A stretch of 64,000 bases of DNA, taken from the NCBI RefSeq assembly GCF_013032855.1, contig NZ_WQDA01000003.1, forward strand, positions 434,001 through 498,000. The letters are read 5' to 3'. The notes beneath the pieces were generated by a model. It did not search any database, was not told the origin of the DNA, and was given only the letters and a program-made list of their open reading frames with translations. Positions 58,215-64,000 of this stretch are shown here, piece by piece. Origin of the DNA: Ruegeria arenilitoris (lineage in GTDB: Bacteria > Pseudomonadota > Alphaproteobacteria > Rhodobacterales > Rhodobacteraceae). Position numbers and translations under genes: made by a program. Within the stretch, counting starts at the first letter, position 1. Every line of letters starts with the position of its first letter.

Positions 58215-58577
58215 TCACGCGGGCTTCGTCAGGTTGGCGGCAATCAACCAGATTGCCAGCACTAATTCGATTCCGCCGAAGGTCAGCGCCTTGGCCAAGG
58301 GGGGATTGTCCAGCAGAACCGACACGAACCGACCCAGCGCCGCGCCCGCATAGACCACGCCCAACATCGCGTAGGCCATCGGGTGGTTCAGCCACAATAC
58401 GGCGATGCCGGTCACGACAAACAGCCCGCCGACCGAGGCCCGCATCTCGCTGAGGCCCATCGTGCTGTTGGTGGGCGCAAGGTCCAGCGAGGCCGCCGTC
58501 CAGGCCGGAGCCAGAAAGCCGAACAGGCCAAAGCCGATGGTCAGAAGGGCTGCGATGATGTTGAGTATTCCGGTCAT
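58215..58577 (-). CDS. DUF4345-like small membrane protein
   Basis: A 120-residue protein with four hydrophobic helices (about 4-24, 45-63, 68-88, 98-116) and short polar loops. It begins MTGILNIIAALLTIGFGLFGF. This matches four-helix DUF4345-type proteins, whose function is unknown. The ATG at 58577 has GAGG upstream; an in-frame extension would add 33 residues outside the fold. It follows the membrane protein at 58642 in the same direction with a gap of 64 bases. Confidence 0.72.
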   Translation of the reverse strand: MTGILNIIAALLTIGFGLFGFLAPAWTAASLDLAPTNSTMGLSEMRASVGGLFVVTGIAVLWLNHPMAYAMLGVVYAGAALGRFVSVLLDNPPLAKALTFGGIELVLAIWLIAANLTKPA

Positions 58578-58641
58578 TGGGGCCTCGCTTTTCAAATGCC
58601 TGCCCGTCGAACCTAATCTGTTTCGGGGCAGGGGGAAGACC

Positions 58642-59292
58642 TCAGATTGCGGCCCAGAGGCCGAGCACCCCCACAAGGATCAGGCTGAGCGCCCAGACCA
58701 TTTCCAGGTTGAACCAGCTGCGAGACAGAAACTGCAGGCCCAGCCAGCGATAGACCGCGAAGGCCAGCGCACCGCCGCCCAGCATCATAGCGCCCGTATG
58801 GACCGCGGCCACAGCCAGGACCAGCAGGCCATTGGTGCCCATGATCTCTGACACGGCTCTGTGGCCGGTATCCAGCTCGTCCAGCCCGCACAGGCCCAGA
58901 TAGATCGGGACCAGCATCAGCGCCGCACCATGCGCCAACGCCACCAGAAACGACCACAGCGCCAGCCGACTGGGCGGTACGCGCGCCAGAAACCGTGGGT
59001 GGCGCCGGGTGATCGCGATGTAGAGGCCCATAGCGATCACGATCAGGGCCGCTCCGATCCGGATTTCGCGCTGATAGTCTACAAGGATGGTCATCAGCGC
59101 AAAGGGCAGCAAAACACCCAGCATCGCCACAAAATGCCCGCCCGCCAGCGCTGCCAACGCGCGCCAGAGAGCGGATTGGCGTTGCTCCATCAATGCCGCC
59201 GACACGGCCAACGGCCAGCCCATACCGGGGTTCAACCCGTGATAGGCACCGCTCAGAACAACGGCCAGCCAGAGGCCGGCCGTCGATGTCAT
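58642..59292 (-). CDS. Membrane protein next to mtoX, function unknown
   Basis: A 216-residue protein with six hydrophobic segments. The first contains LSGAYHGLNPGMGWPLAVSAAL, and later LVALAHGAALMLVPIYLGL holds a histidine in a helix. This reminds one of metal-transport families with histidine in helices (NiCoT/RcnA-like, CcdA-like), but I cannot assign it. It starts 13 bases after the mtoX stop, so both are probably one transcript. A role in metal supply to MtoX is only an inference. Confidence 0.75.
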   Translation of the reverse strand: MTSTAGLWLAVVLSGAYHGLNPGMGWPLAVSAALMEQRQSALWRALAALAGGHFVAMLGVLLPFALMTILVDYQREIRIGAALIVIAMGLYIAITRRHPRFLARVPPSRLALWSFLVALAHGAALMLVPIYLGLCGLDELDTGHRAVSEIMGTNGLLVLAVAAVHTGAMMLGGGALAFAVYRWLGLQFLSRSWFNLEMVWALSLILVGVLGLWAAI

Positions 59293-59305
59293 CAAGACGT
59301 CCAAT

Positions 59306-60706
59306 TCAGACCGAAGGGTAGCAGAAACTGTCGGTGGAGCAGTCTCCTCCCTCAAGCCGGATCTGGTGGCTGCGATACCCTTTCGGAAAATCCACCCAGA
59401 AATCCTTGTCCAGTGTCAGGCCGCCTTTTTCGCCTACATCCGCCTTGACCATCGCAGCGCCGCGATCGCCAGGATAGAATTGGTCATCCCATGTGGAATA
59501 GAGCGAATTGGTCCAGTAGACGCGTTTGCCGTCACGGCTGATCTCGACCATCTGCGGGCCATAACCAAAGTCCTTGCCGTTGGGATGCTTGGTTTTCTTG
59601 ACGATTCCGCCGATCTCGACCTTGCCGGCCAGCTTGGGCTTCATCGGGTCCGAGACATCGTATTGGTGCATTTCACCGGTGCCCCAGCACGCGACATACA
59701 GGTATTTGTCGTCCAAGCTCAGGTCGATGTCGGTCACCAGAGGCGGCACCGCCGAGAACCCTTTGAGCAGATCGGGAAGATCATCCGGATCAGCGGGTTG
59801 CGGGTCGATCGTGATGGTCTTCTTGGCCTCGAAACTGCCATCCTTGTTGCGCCACCAGGTAAAGATTGCGCCCTGAAGATTGGTGGTGTCGACCACCACA
59901 CCGCAGAACCCGTATTGCTTGACCGGGTCATGCGCCGGCCGGATTTCCAGCGCCATCTGGTGGTTCTCGCCCAAATCGATGGTCTGGATGTTGGTGCGGT
60001 CGCGCAGGTTCCAGAAATGGATCCGGTGGCCATATTTGTTCGACAGAAGATCTTCGGCCACGATCCCGTTTTCGAATTGCGGGGGCAGACCCCATTCGGA
60101 ACTGACCATGTAGTCACGCGGCAGGTTCCACCAGAAATCATAGTGCTTGTCCTGCACGCCGCGCTCGATCTCGTAACGCCCGATGATGTCGAAGGTCTCG
60201 CAATCCATGATGAAGATGCCCGGAGGTCCATCGGTGCCATCCGGCCCGCCACCGCCCAAGGTGCTGACATAGATGCCTTCGGGTCCGCAATGGATCGTGT
60301 GGGGGCGGGAATATCCCGTCTTTGCAAAGACTTCTTCGGGTTCGATGATCTTGTGAATTTTGGCCTTCAGCGGCTCTTTCACGTCAATCACGTGGATCCG
60401 GCTGGAACGGATACCGGGGATGATCAGGTACCGGCGCTCAAGAAAAGCGTGGCCGGTCAGCGGAGACAGGGCCGAGGAGCAGGCGTTCCATCCGAAATGG
60501 TGAAACTCGTCGCCCTTGTTGGGCATCATCACCTTGTGAACGATCTTTCCGTAATCGCCCGAAGTTGGGTCGACATTCACAACCGCCAAGCCATCGGGCT
60601 GCGAAAAATCGGGGCTGAGCATCAGCGTGAAGGCCAAGGTTTCGGGCGGGGCCTCCATGGCCATCTTGGCGGATGGATAGAATGTTGGATCCGGTCTTTT
60701 GTTCAT
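59306..60706 (-). CDS. mtoX: Methanethiol oxidase (selenium-binding protein 56 family)
   Basis: Oxidises methanethiol to formaldehyde, sulfide and peroxide; the family includes Hyphomicrobium MtoX and human SELENBP1. The 466 residues form a seven-blade propeller. Expected histidine-rich metal segments are visible: FHHFGWNACSS near residue 70, SRPHTIHCGPEG near 133, LVTDIDLSLDDKYLYVACWG near 330, GEMHQYDVSD after it and YRSHQIRLEGGDCSTDSFC at the C terminus. No signal peptide is seen, so the protein may be cytoplasmic, unlike some described members. GGGAGG precedes ATG 60706. The FadR-type regulator lies just upstream in the same direction. Confidence 0.93.
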   Translation of the reverse strand: MNKRPDPTFYPSAKMAMEAPPETLAFTLMLSPDFSQPDGLAVVNVDPTSGDYGKIVHKVMMPNKGDEFHHFGWNACSSALSPLTGHAFLERRYLIIPGIRSSRIHVIDVKEPLKAKIHKIIEPEEVFAKTGYSRPHTIHCGPEGIYVSTLGGGGPDGTDGPPGIFIMDCETFDIIGRYEIERGVQDKHYDFWWNLPRDYMVSSEWGLPPQFENGIVAEDLLSNKYGHRIHFWNLRDRTNIQTIDLGENHQMALEIRPAHDPVKQYGFCGVVVDTTNLQGAIFTWWRNKDGSFEAKKTITIDPQPADPDDLPDLLKGFSAVPPLVTDIDLSLDDKYLYVACWGTGEMHQYDVSDPMKPKLAGKVEIGGIVKKTKHPNGKDFGYGPQMVEISRDGKRVYWTNSLYSTWDDQFYPGDRGAAMVKADVGEKGGLTLDKDFWVDFPKGYRSHQIRLEGGDCSTDSFCYPSV

Positions 60707-60833
60707 AACGTCCTCCCGTAAGTCATTGAAAATCAATTTTATTGAGAGTGCCGGTCTTCCCGCCGGATGATGGTCTGCCTGCTCGAGTGTCCTTTCCGTT
60801 GATGTGATGCGTCAAGAAGAATTCAGAGTGTCT

Positions 60834-61565
60834 TCAGGCCGGTTTCCGCCGACGTTCGGCCACATCATGGGCCAGGCGGCGGGTGTAGGTTTCCAGTTCG
60901 ACCAGCGCGGCGTCGACGGTCTCGGCGTCCTGCGCCTCCAGCGCGTCGGCGATCTTGCTGTGCAGGCGGATGATCTCCTCGCGCGAGCGGGCGGTGAAGG
61001 TGATCATGTTCATCAGGGGCTGCATCGCCTCGACGGCTCCGGCCAGTTGATAGGACAGGACAGGGTTGCCCGCACCATCCACCAGCGCCCGGTGAAAGGC
61101 CACGTCCGAGGCGCAGAAGGCCTCATCCGTCAGACCGGGTTGAGCCTGACGGAAGATTTCCGCGCGCATGGTGGCCAATTGATCGGCGGTGCGCCGCTGG
61201 GCCGACAGGGGCGCGCAAGCCCGTTCCAACGCATAGCGGGCCTCGCAGGCGGTGTCGAAGCTGACCTCGTTCATCGACAGCAACAGCGTCGAAGTCGTGA
61301 TCTGCTGAGAATAGGCGTCCTGGAAACTCAGCCGGTTGACGAAGGCACCCCCCGTCGCGCCGCGCTGGGTACGGATCAGCGATTGCGCCGCCAGCCGTTT
61401 CAGCGCCTCGCGCACGGTGGGGCGCGACACCTGGAACTGGTCCGCAAGCTCGGATTCCGAGGGCAGGCGCTCGTCCACGATCAGCTCTCCTGATACGATG
61501 GCATCGCGGATGGCCTGGGCGATCTGCGCGGACAGGTCGGTGCTTTTCTGGGGATCGATTTTCAT
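60834..61565 (-). CDS. GntR-family regulator (FadR/FCD type)
   Basis: A 243-residue regulator with an N-terminal winged HTH (LPSESELADQFQVSRPTVREA) and a C-terminal all-helical FCD domain with metal/ligand residues in DVAFHRALVDGAGNP and the late LHSKIADALEAQD. It reads towards mtoX, 128 bases away, and is divergent from the DUF2182 gene. Tandem FadR-type operators lie directly upstream, so it likely represses itself and the right-hand operon. In Roseobacters a GntR gene sits beside dmdA, which supports a DMSP-related role. Confidence 0.9.
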   Translation of the reverse strand: MKIDPQKSTDLSAQIAQAIRDAIVSGELIVDERLPSESELADQFQVSRPTVREALKRLAAQSLIRTQRGATGGAFVNRLSFQDAYSQQITTSTLLLSMNEVSFDTACEARYALERACAPLSAQRRTADQLATMRAEIFRQAQPGLTDEAFCASDVAFHRALVDGAGNPVLSYQLAGAVEAMQPLMNMITFTARSREEIIRLHSKIADALEAQDAETVDAALVELETYTRRLAHDVAERRRKPA

Positions 61566-61593
61566 CTTCTGCAGGCCGCCGTGAAAAATTTAT

Positions 61594-61619
61594 TTGTCTG
61601 ACATTTAAAAGTCTGACAT
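61594..61619. promoter_or_regulatory. Tandem FadR-type operators
   Basis: TTGTCTGACAT (61594-61604) and AAGTCTGACAT (61609-61619), 15 bases apart, fit the pattern tnGTnnnACna of FCD-type GntR sites. They lie between the GntR start and the DUF2182 start, in an AT-rich promoter region. Confidence 0.65.
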
Positions 61620-61650
61620 TTGAAAAGCAAGCACCGAGTCGGGAGGGAAC

Positions 61651-62442
61651 ATGAGTCGGGCACTTCTACGCAGTGGTTTGTGGCTGGGCTTTTTCGTCCT
61701 GATCCTGTGGGCCTGGTGGGTGATGTACACCATGAGCCGCGACATGGGCGTCGATTGGATTGGCCGACCCGGGCCAATGGCCGAGGCGATGCGTGCGATG
61801 GATCCCCGCATGGACATGTACATGCCGATGGCCGAGTTCGGCCCGCTGTTCGTGATGTGGGCGATCATGATGGCCGCGATGATGCTTCCGACGTTGGTTC
61901 CGACACTGAAAAGCTATGAGGATTTGATCCAGAGCGCCAATGGAACAAGGCTTGGGTGGGTCGGCGTTCTGTTGGGCTATTTCGTAGTCTGGGCCGGGTT
62001 CGCCGCGTTGATCACAGGTGTTCAGCTGGCTTTGCTGTTCGGGGGCGTGATCGACATGCTGGGCATTGCCAAGTCTCCGCTCTTTGCTGCCGGTCTTCTG
62101 ATTGCCGTCGGTGCCTTTCAATTCACGCGCGCCAAGGAAGTGTGCCACGGGGTGTGTCATGCACCCATGACCTATTTCCTTGGACACTGGCGCACCGGCT
62201 TTTCTGGCGGTCTGCGTATGGGCCTTGGGCTGGGCGCCTTTTGTGTCGGCTGCTGCTGGGGGTTCATGGCGCTTGGCTTTGTCGGAGGCGTGATGAGCCT
62301 GCTGTGGATGGGCTTGGCGACCCTGTTCATGGTGTTGGAGAAATTGCCCCAGATCGGTCATGTTCTGACACGGCCGCTGGGTTTCGCTTTGATTGCAGGT
62401 GGCCTTGGGCTACTGATCTACCCAATTGCATACGGAGGATAA
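61651..62442 (+). CDS. DUF2182 integral membrane protein
   Basis: A 263-residue membrane protein with about six to seven helices, a family called predicted metal-binding but without known function. Methionine-rich segments (MAEAMRAMDPRMDMYMPMAEF near residues 38-60; WAIMMAAMMLPT near 70-81) and CHGVCHAPM near 170-178, with histidines and cysteines, are candidates for copper binding. LGLGAFCVGCCWGFMAL is a later cysteine-rich helix. GGGAGGG precedes the ATG. The DUF1326 gene follows 4 bases after the stop, so it is the first gene of the operon that runs into dmdA. Confidence 0.9.
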   Translation: MSRALLRSGLWLGFFVLILWAWWVMYTMSRDMGVDWIGRPGPMAEAMRAMDPRMDMYMPMAEFGPLFVMWAIMMAAMMLPTLVPTLKSYEDLIQSANGTRLGWVGVLLGYFVVWAGFAALITGVQLALLFGGVIDMLGIAKSPLFAAGLLIAVGAFQFTRAKEVCHGVCHAPMTYFLGHWRTGFSGGLRMGLGLGAFCVGCCWGFMALGFVGGVMSLLWMGLATLFMVLEKLPQIGHVLTRPLGFALIAGGLGLLIYPIAYGG

Positions 62443-62446
62443 GCCG

Positions 62447-63151
62447 ATGGCAAAAAACAGAAAACCCGATGCCGACAAGCTGCCGGTCAGTCAGCGAATT
62501 GACAGCCGGATGCCAAATCCCAAGCGCCGCGAGATGAGCCCGACGGACTGGGCCATCAAGGGTGAGCTTATCCTGAACTGCTCCTGCGACGTGTTCTGCC
62601 CCTGCGTGGTTTCGCTGGGGGCGCACCCTCCGACCGAAGGGCATTGTCATGCGTGGATGGGCGTGATCATTGACGAGGGACACTATGAAGGTGAGGACCT
62701 GTCAGGTCTGAACGTCGGTCTGCTGGTCGATATTCCTGGCCGGATGGGCGAAGGCCAGTGGAAGGTTGCCGCTTACGTGGATGAGCGCGCAAGTGGCAAG
62801 GCGTACAACGGCCTGTTGCAGATTTTCAGCGGGCAGGCCGGTGGCACCACTGGGCTGTTCACGATGCTGGTGAGTGAAATCATCGGGGCCGAGCGTGCTC
62901 CGGTGCAGATCGAGCGCGACGGCAACAAACGCCGCATCGTCATCGGCCGCAAGATCCAGGGTGAGATCGAGATGCTGGCAGGCAAAGATCCCGAGCATCC
63001 GGTCATGGTGTCCAATTCCAAGTATTGGATGGGCCCGGACATCATCGTGGCGCGTGGCACCAAGTCGAAGGTGCGCGATTATGGTCGTGTCTGGGATTTC
63101 GGCGGCAAATCTGCCGAAATCTGCCCGATCGACTGGCACGGACCCAAGTGA
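62447..63151 (+). CDS. DUF1326 protein, cysteine-rich
   Basis: A 234-residue protein, commonly encoded next to DUF2182. The key region is LNCSCDVFCPCVVSLGAHPP near residues 43-62: five cysteines in a cluster that could bind metal, then HCHAWMGVIIDEGHYEG. The rest is a beta-rich domain (LVSEIIGAERAPVQIERDG). No signal peptide is seen. Together with DUF2182 it may form a metal-handling unit; direct evidence is missing. Start ATG 62447 with GGAGG upstream; its stop overlaps the DinB start (TGATG). Confidence 0.88.
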   Translation: MAKNRKPDADKLPVSQRIDSRMPNPKRREMSPTDWAIKGELILNCSCDVFCPCVVSLGAHPPTEGHCHAWMGVIIDEGHYEGEDLSGLNVGLLVDIPGRMGEGQWKVAAYVDERASGKAYNGLLQIFSGQAGGTTGLFTMLVSEIIGAERAPVQIERDGNKRRIVIGRKIQGEIEMLAGKDPEHPVMVSNSKYWMGPDIIVARGTKSKVRDYGRVWDFGGKSAEICPIDWHGPK

Positions 63152-63678
63152 TGATCACCGGCGCCTATGCACAGCAGATGGCCCGCTATAACCGCTGGCA
63201 GAACAGCCAGTTGGCGGGCTTTCTTCAAGAGCTTTCGCCCGAGGAGTTGACCCGGGAGCGCGGTGCGTTTTTCGGGTCGATCCTGGGGACTGCCAACCAT
63301 CTGCTGTGGGGCGACTGGATTTGGATGTCGCGGTTCGACAAAGGTCCGGGGCCTGATAGCAATCCGCACCGCAAGGGCGGCGGTATTCACGAAAGCGTCC
63401 ACCTGTGCCCGGATCTGGCGCACTGGCTTCCACTGCGCGAGACCATCGATGCGCGGATCGATGCTTGGGTTGAAACTCTGGGCGACGAGCCAATCTCGGG
63501 TCCGTTCACCTGGTATTCCGCGGCAAAAGAAGAAGACATTACATTACCTTACGCCGTGTGTGTGATGCATTTTTTCAATCATCAAACGCATCACCGGGGA
63601 CAAATCCACAAAATGCTGACCGAGGCCGGGTCTGGGGCCCCGGTCAGTGATCTCGTTTTCTTGCCCGAGGAGGTCTAA
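63151..63678 (+). CDS. DinB-like metal-dependent protein
   Basis: A 175-residue four-helix-bundle protein of the DinB/YfiT type. The histidine triad for a divalent metal is visible: H in GTANHLLWGDWIW near residue 47, and HFFNHQTHHRGQIH near 134-147. The start MITGAYAQQMARYNRWQN is typical. DinB-like proteins include thiol-S-transferases (bacillithiol, mycothiol), but other activities occur, so the reaction is open. It overlaps DUF1326 by one base and abuts the dmdA-like start with no gap. Confidence 0.88.
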   Translation: MITGAYAQQMARYNRWQNSQLAGFLQELSPEELTRERGAFFGSILGTANHLLWGDWIWMSRFDKGPGPDSNPHRKGGGIHESVHLCPDLAHWLPLRETIDARIDAWVETLGDEPISGPFTWYSAAKEEDITLPYAVCVMHFFNHQTHHRGQIHKMLTEAGSGAPVSDLVFLPEEV

Positions 63679-64000
63679 GTGCCACAGATTTCTTTGTCGC
63701 GCCGGCTGCGGCGCACGCCGTTCTCCGACGGGGTCGAGGCGGCCGGTGTCAAAGGTTATACCGTGTACAACCGGATGTTGCTGCCCACGGTATTTGAAAG
63801 CGTCGAGGCCGACTATCGGCATCTCAAAACCCACGTGCAGGTCTGGGACGTATCATGCGAGCGGCAGGTCGAACTGCGCGGTCCCGATGCGGCGCGGCTG
63901 ATGCAGATGCTGACCCCGCGCGACCTGCGCGGCATGCTGCCGGGCCAGTGCTACTATGTGCCGATCGTGGACGAAACCGGGGGAATGCTGAACGATCCCG
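63679..64000 (+). CDS. dmdA: DMSP demethylase DmdA-like, partial (3' outside window)
   Basis: The first 107 codons of a GcvT-fold methyltransferase. The N terminus, RRLRRTPFSDGVEAAGVKGY then TVYNRMLLPTVFE, closely matches DmdA of Ruegeria as I remember it, more than ordinary GcvT. VQVWDVSCERQVELRGPDA and GQCYYVPIVDETGGMLNDP are the next conserved blocks. DmdA transfers a methyl group from dimethylsulfoniopropionate to tetrahydrofolate. Start is GTG 63679, directly after the DinB stop, with GAGGAGG upstream. The neighbouring mtoX and GntR genes support this role. A GcvT-like paralogue is possible because the C-terminal part is missing. Confidence 0.8.
   Translation, partial: MPQISLSRRLRRTPFSDGVEAAGVKGYTVYNRMLLPTVFESVEADYRHLKTHVQVWDVSCERQVELRGPDAARLMQMLTPRDLRGMLPGQCYYVPIVDETGGMLNDP

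Follow-up and report, generated by a model that had tools for sequence, protein, structure and literature searches.

At the right-hand end of a window of 64,000 nucleotides from Ruegeria arenilitoris (contig NZ_WQDA01000003.1, positions 434,001 to 498,000; here G000:C3:434001-498000, in a genome of 3.8 Mb), dmdA, the gene for the dimethylsulfoniopropionate (DMSP) demethylase, is preceded on the same strand by genes for a DUF2182 membrane protein and a DUF1326 protein. Comparison of genome sequences showed this DUF2182-DUF1326 pair to be the conserved first members of the operon in most of the dmdA-bearing Rhodobacteraceae sampled. A copper function of the pair is a good lead rather than a result, and we give an even chance to the proposal that the two proteins form a Cu(I) import and hand-over module in the DMSP regulon, expressed together with dmdA. 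Demethylation of DMSP by roseobacters is a major route in the marine sulfur cycle and competes with the release of dimethyl sulfide. The presence of a copper-type pair at the head of the dmdA operon in most dmdA-bearing roseobacter genera suggests a possible copper link to the pathway that makes methanethiol. If most genera do have a copper module in this operon, the supply of copper may influence where methanethiol goes and how demethylation and cleavage are balanced. The linkage to dmdA also places the DUF2182-DUF1326 pair in a pathway and indicates candidate partners for bacterial enzymes of the SBP56 family.

The linkage was measured in a sample of 246 Rhodobacteraceae genomes from 245 genera, in which dmdA over its cut-off was found in 106 genomes, DUF1326 in 128 and SBP56 in 87. 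DUF1326 lay within 6 kb of dmdA at 84 of 114 dmdA loci, against 0.42 expected, and in all 84 cases it was upstream and on the same strand; these loci come from 84 of the 106 dmdA genomes and from 83 genera. At the genome level both genes occurred in 90 genomes, dmdA only in 16, DUF1326 only in 38 and neither in 102, an odds ratio of 15 with kinship ignored. The DUF1326 genes of two genomes (G434 and G461) were counted at genome level only, and the weakest DUF1326 matches are not among the matches listed. DUF2182 accompanied DUF1326 at every one of the 84 linked loci, with acuI at 77, a divergent gntR gene at 69, a DinB-family gene at 43 and an SBP56 gene at 3. In a further set of 80 titled loci retrieved by their DmdA, which are the closest by sequence among the matches listed and not an even sample, the pair was present at 69, acuI at 75, gntR at 73, DinB at 50 and SBP56 at 10, all ten of the last being titled Ruegeria or Tateyamaria. 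An original prediction, made from the letters of this stretch, had held that the DUF2182, DUF1326 and DinB genes belong with dmdA, and this is borne out by the pair (84 of 106 dmdA genomes), by DinB (43 of 84 loci) and by the conserved operator described below. Eight of the 84 loci also carry an acyl-CoA synthetase gene, five times between DUF1326 and dmdA and three times directly after dmdA, and such a gene adjoins dmdA at 4 of 16 examined loci that lack the pair. The three synthetases that were scanned are of the PRK08162 type; their identification as DmdB was rejected, since they passed the PRK08162 model and not PRK07008. The recurrence of the synthetase beside DUF1326 or dmdA (also at L405:4589-6235, L404 and L407) was noted separately, and the enzyme may activate 3-methylmercaptopropionate (MMPA) or acrylate. 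In two genomes (G326 and G484; loci L161 and L163) the match to the dmdA profile has one TGA inside it, possibly just the terminal stop.

In the window the operon begins with the gene for the COG5486-type DUF2182/PpoB2 copper chaperone-like membrane protein (61651-62442, plus strand; PF09948, 201.2 bits against a gathering cut-off of 28.7), followed on the same strand by DUF1326 (62447-63151; PF07040, 180.9 bits, gathering cut-off 25), the DinB-family gene (63151-63678; PF05163, 87.8 bits, cut-off 23) and dmdA (63679-64782, the 5' part up to 64000 lying in the window). DmdA, predicted as a dmdA-like product, passes the curated NCBIfam cut-off (NF009133, 695.9 against 410 bits) and is 92-93% identical to the DmdA of some Ruegeria records. 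The gene for AcuI follows dmdA past the window end on the same contig; it passes the broader model TIGR02823 (443.4 bits, cut-off 297.25) and falls below the curated cut-off of the acrylyl-CoA reductase model NF051456 (421.7 against 440). Successive genes from DUF2182 to dmdA are separated by 4, -1 and 0 bases, a spacing like that of operons whose genes are translationally coupled. The GntR/FCD regulator gene (60834-61565, minus strand) is divergent from the operon, and the predicted layout, two arms meeting at a GntR region with overlapping or abutting plus-strand genes, agrees with these coordinates and with the spacing (4 bp, a 1-bp overlap, abutting). The sequence thus identifies the right arm as the operon for DMSP demethylation in a Ruegeria-like roseobacter, the GntR gene diverging from it. 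The order dmdA then acuI is that of Ruegeria pomeroyi DSS-3, in which, according to excerpts of the report, a 350-bp promoter fragment reaches into dmdA (PMC3338564). Because this 350-bp fragment was used as the promoter, the pair is probably absent from just upstream of dmdA in that strain; the usual model strain would then be one without the pair at dmdA, which may explain why the pair has been missed. No mention of DUF1326, DUF2182, COG5588, PF07040, PF09948 or SPO1909-SPO1912 was found in the literature searched, nor of copper genes in a dmdA operon or of dmdA tied to DinB, most subscription literature lying outside the search.

Between the regulator and the first gene of the operon lies a putative GntR operator (61594-61619) consisting of the box TTGTCTGACAT at 61594-61604 and the one-off box AAGTCTGACAT at 61609-61619. 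The corresponding sequence TGTCNGACA, which we take to be a palindrome of the GntR type, occurs in 52 of the 62 intervals from gntR to the first gene that could be used, against a mean of 0.3 in shuffled sequence (100 loci were considered, of which 38 gave no usable interval). It was present in 49 of the 57 intervals in which DUF2182 is the first gene and in 2 of the 4 in which dmdA is first. As the palindrome is conserved in this position, the pair is probably co-regulated with dmdA. A strict form, TTGTCWGACAWW, occurs at five sites in the window's genome, in which the reversed control gave none. One of the five is ahead of the DUF2182-dmdA operon and another lies some 115 bp ahead of the start codon (ATG) of a gene best matched by the model for 3-(methylthio)propionyl-CoA ligase (DmdB); this gene is cut by the locus edge and scores 693 bits, the cut-off for the whole protein being 822. 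The strict form also precedes dmdB in G326, of the same genus, and in G354, and a wider palindrome regulon that includes dmdB is a lead suggested by these sites. Two of the five were set aside as they look like coding coincidences, one in a photolyase gene (L412) and one at an acyl-CoA dehydrogenase start codon (L414). The remaining site (L411, at about 1501) is between a gene reading by eye as folD and its neighbour.

The case for copper comes from the DUF2182 protein. The original prediction had drawn attention to its methionine and cysteine motifs, to a CxCx3CPC cluster in DUF1326 and to a histidine triad in DinB, and all three sets of residues proved to be conserved. In 55 DUF2182 rows the invariant residues are M69, M73, M77, M78, C165, C169, C198, C201, C202, M206 and M215, and the structure model is confident (predicted local distance difference test, pLDDT, 91.6). 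The prediction was mistaken in holding that DUF2182 has no described function: the Pfam family is now named PpoB2, 'Copper chaperone', after a protein of Marinomonas mediterranea. That protein takes part in the specific transfer of copper to the tyrosinase PpoB1 and, according to the excerpts of the report on it, was the first COG5486 protein to be given a role (PMC2855505). Membership of the PpoB2 copper-chaperone family makes a metal role for the pair plausible. In the PpoB1-PpoB2 operon, as here, DUF2182/PpoB2 is encoded with enzymes that it may serve; there the client is a tyrosinase, whereas here the partner is DUF1326, the position is before dmdA-acuI and the operon contains no known copper enzyme. 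DUF1326 has five invariant cysteines in 70 rows (45, 47, 51 and 53, forming CxCx3CPC, and C67) and is modelled with confidence as a mostly beta structure (pLDDT 92.9). A hydropathy scan flags only residues 41-59, which are the cysteine cluster and not a membrane helix in the model. No sequence match to DUF1326 was found in the PDB below E 0.03. By structure, Foldseek returned the acetoacetate decarboxylase fold at E 1e-4 and probability 1.00, but with template modelling (TM) scores of 0.33-0.42 and root mean square deviations above 10, and the modelled fold can only tentatively be said to resemble that of acetoacetate decarboxylase. The DinB triad is H50/H144/H148, with H50 present in all 55 rows and H144 and H148 in 54 of 55.

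We propose that the GntR protein would bind the palindrome, that DUF2182 would take up Cu(I) by way of its methionine-rich segment and pass it to its cysteine residues, and that it would then hand the metal to DUF1326 as a soluble acceptor with five invariant cysteines. Expressed with dmdA, the pair would maintain the supply of metal to copper enzymes during the production of methanethiol. Methanethiol is a thiol expected to bind copper. It has also been reported, in excerpts of a study of human SELENBP1, to inhibit cytochrome c oxidase (PMC10362175), and because of this inhibition the respiratory copper oxidases would be an alternative client of the pair. In Ruegeria and Tateyamaria an SBP56 protein with a membrane partner of its own would have joined the locus and would be a likely but not the sole client; more generally, SBP56 would be the first candidate to consider as a client, though no more than a possible one.

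The SBP56 gene of the window (59306-60706, minus strand; PF05694, 584.3 bits, gathering cut-off 34) is on the left arm and had been predicted to be mtoX. It does belong to the SBP56 family, but that name was rejected, as the protein scores 103.8 bits against the curated cut-off of 650 for MtoX (NF052453). The mtoX-SCO1/senC-mauG operon of Hyphomicrobium and of R. pomeroyi (SPOA0268-0272) resembles this locus in having an SBP56-family enzyme with possible copper helpers nearby. Here, in contrast, the SBP56 subfamily is another one, the regulator is GntR instead of IclR, and a hydropathy scan (the only method applied, without a signal-peptide program) shows no hydrophobic segment in the SBP56 protein; no SCO1/SenC or MauG was found among the nine proteins scanned from 58215 to acuI, genes further left being read by eye only. 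Human SELENBP1, a copper-dependent thiol oxidase, belongs to the same family. The motifs HH69-70 and HTIH136-139 of the window's protein, numbered from the ATG and matched by motif and position rather than by alignment, are at nearly the same positions as H73/H74 and H137/H140 of SELENBP1, which are required for its activity; methanethiol oxidation by SELENBP1 requires copper, as stated in the excerpts cited above (PMC10362175). Methanethiol oxidation by the window's type of SBP56 is plausible, and the protein at the Ruegeria and Tateyamaria loci is likely to be a thiol oxidase. SBP56 loci of a sample of 231 genomes from the class, taken with flanks of up to 1.5 kb, were divided into three groups on their Pfam scores, with the type found in the window as class 2. 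Directly after the class 2 gene there is a gene for a membrane protein with no Pfam family, here called 'memb' (58642-59292, minus strand, in the window). It was found in this position at 11 of 11 class 2 loci (L070-L080) from several families, at 0 of 6 class-sample and 0 of 30 family-sample loci of the higher-scoring group, and at 0 of 8 loci of the MtoX-like, low-scoring group. Since 'memb' follows only the window's SBP56 group at these loci, the left arm is a two-gene SBP56 unit of its own. The invariant residues of 'memb' are His18, Met24, His53, His121, Met126 and His165, and a family search with 19 members gave no match better than E 0.02. With invariant histidine and methionine and no family, 'memb' is a candidate metal transporter.

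Several observations weigh against the proposal that the pair is a copper module of the DMSP regulon. The DUF2182 model has no structural match in the PDB below E 0.001. Among the 106 dmdA genomes of the family, 22 lack the full pair at dmdA (loci were examined for 16 of them); one of these, G479, keeps a short DUF1326 remnant, and an assembly break probably divides the locus of another, G426. In the class sample 25 of 231 genomes had dmdA over the cut-off, 21 of them outside the family, and the pair was at dmdA in none of the 21, so DmdA does not need the pair; DUF1326 was found anywhere in only two of the 21, in neither case near dmdA. Of 66 DUF1326 loci distant from dmdA, 40 were examined and comprised a subtype A, with DUF2182 first and near to the window's type (23 loci, among them that of G426), and a subtype B, mostly with DUF1326 first and remote from it. 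At 18 of the 23 subtype A loci acuI is nearby, in one case in the opposite direction. On a quick DUF1326 tree of 113 rows with many weak branches, including 84 dmdA rows and 25 other rows (two of them from other families), the type A rows without dmdA are scattered, with 21 changes; the two shuffled means were 26.0 (as low in 5 of 500) and 22.8 (as low in 83 of 500). Since these rows are scattered and mostly beside acuI, it seems that repeated losses or gains of dmdA have taken place with the pair staying next to acuI. Gene order conserved inside one family is also partly inheritance. As for the palindrome, its strict form precedes dmdB in only 3 of 21 scanned genomes (26 have a DmdB match), some pair-linked genomes, such as G131, G309 and G519, lack it at their dmdA operon, and the reversed control matches in 17 of 30 other genomes scanned, so that single strict sites mean little.

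The repeated company of acuI raises the alternative that the pair belongs to acuI and to acrylate or acryloyl-CoA stress, in which electrophiles would use up copper-buffering thiols and the pair would handle the freed copper or protect the thiols. The 18 dmdA-less loci beside acuI and the presence of acuI at 77 of the 84 linked loci argue for it, as does the behaviour of R. pomeroyi dmdA-acuI, which acrylate and DMSP induce and MMPA does not, as given in the excerpts of that work (PMC3338564). Against it, at four loci outside the family (L404, L405, L406 and L408) the pair is found with an acyl-CoA synthetase and no acuI in the stretch examined, and dmdB, which acts in demethylation, likewise has the strict palindrome ahead of it in the three genomes (of 21) given above. 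We regard this alternative as unlikely on balance. A similarly small chance is given to the idea that the pair is a passenger, a general copper or metal module present in the operon by inheritance and with no functional tie to DMSP. Such a passenger would account for pairs retained where dmdA is absent and for DmdA elsewhere without the pair, and 35 of the 47 PpoB2 loci of the class sample have DUF1326 no more than 2 kb away, mostly in genomes whose locus has no dmdA (four DUF1326 fragments and, below the cut-off, three PpoB2 rows and one SBP56 row were excluded from this count). It sits less well with a linkage that holds in 83 sampled genera although the inserts (DinB, acyl-CoA synthetase) vary, with the short spacing and with the shared palindrome. 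In addition, one genome of another family, G283, which is outside the sample of 231, has the complete unit of gntR divergent from DUF2182-DUF1326-dmdA-acyl-CoA synthetase-acuI (L407), and its DUF1326 falls among those of Rhodobacteraceae on the tree; this is best read, from the sequences, as transfer of the whole unit.

The helper genes had originally been predicted to serve metal supply or thiol/formaldehyde handling for methanethiol oxidation; in the strict form of this prediction they would load copper into a methanethiol oxidase encoded next door. An SBP56 gene does stand beside the operon in Ruegeria and Tateyamaria (the 10 of 80 titled loci), in G348 (L271) dmdA has SBP56 and 'memb' directly behind it, all on one strand, and at L404, in another family, DUF2182 (a partial match), DUF1326, acyl-CoA synthetase and SBP56 genes share one strand. 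Class 2 SBP56 is found in 47 of the 106 genomes with dmdA and in 10 of the other 140, compared with 27 against 4 for class 1 and 1 against 4 for the MtoX-like class 3, kinship being ignored throughout, and the copper requirement of SELENBP1 points the same way. Linkage in the family sample tells against SBP56 as the client. Over 102 SBP56 loci in 85 genomes (fragments and one row below the cut-off excluded; G320 and G449 counted at genome level only), SBP56 was within 15 kb of DUF1326 at 3, against 0.90 expected (P 0.06), and within 15 kb of dmdA at 5, against 0.79 expected (P 0.001, or P 0.05 if the five loci are taken as three events). With fragments excluded, only 52 of the 84 pair-linked dmdA genomes have SBP56 at all and 32 do not. 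A general linkage of SBP56 to the pair is thus weak and was set aside; class 2 SBP56 moreover has its own membrane partner at 11 of 11 loci, and mtoX, in the excerpts of the paper describing it, goes with SCO1/SenC and MauG (PMC5739008). We consider the strict form very improbable. The metal role is plausible through the PpoB2 family; a dedicated MtoX role is not supported, given the missed MtoX cut-off, the 3 of 102 loci and the 32 of 84 genomes. The synteny result that was to refute the prediction holds by half: pairs are common without SBP56, but the window's subtype occurs rarely without dmdA or acuI. Except for the name mtoX, what the prediction described is real, its dmdA part being much better supported than the letters of the stretch could show and its mtoX part much less. 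The Cu(I) module expressed with dmdA may be extended to a fuller version in which the DUF2182-DUF1326 pair would be a dedicated route for the import of Cu(I) into the cytosol and its insertion for thiol oxidation in DMSP demethylation, feeding a cytosolic SELENBP1-type SBP56, and 'memb' would be a new family of histidine/methionine metal transporters tied to class 2 SBP56; as a whole this version is improbable.

Two smaller observations concern the surroundings of these genes. A gene for a DUF4345 protein (58215-58676), on the same strand as 'memb', overlaps the end of the 'memb' gene. The window's genome also holds a second pair, of type B (L314, G000:C1:1018879-1031412). The type B pairs, with DUF1326 first and low scores, showed no common neighbourhood among the few loci examined; that of the window's genome is near genes reading by eye as gatC and gatA.

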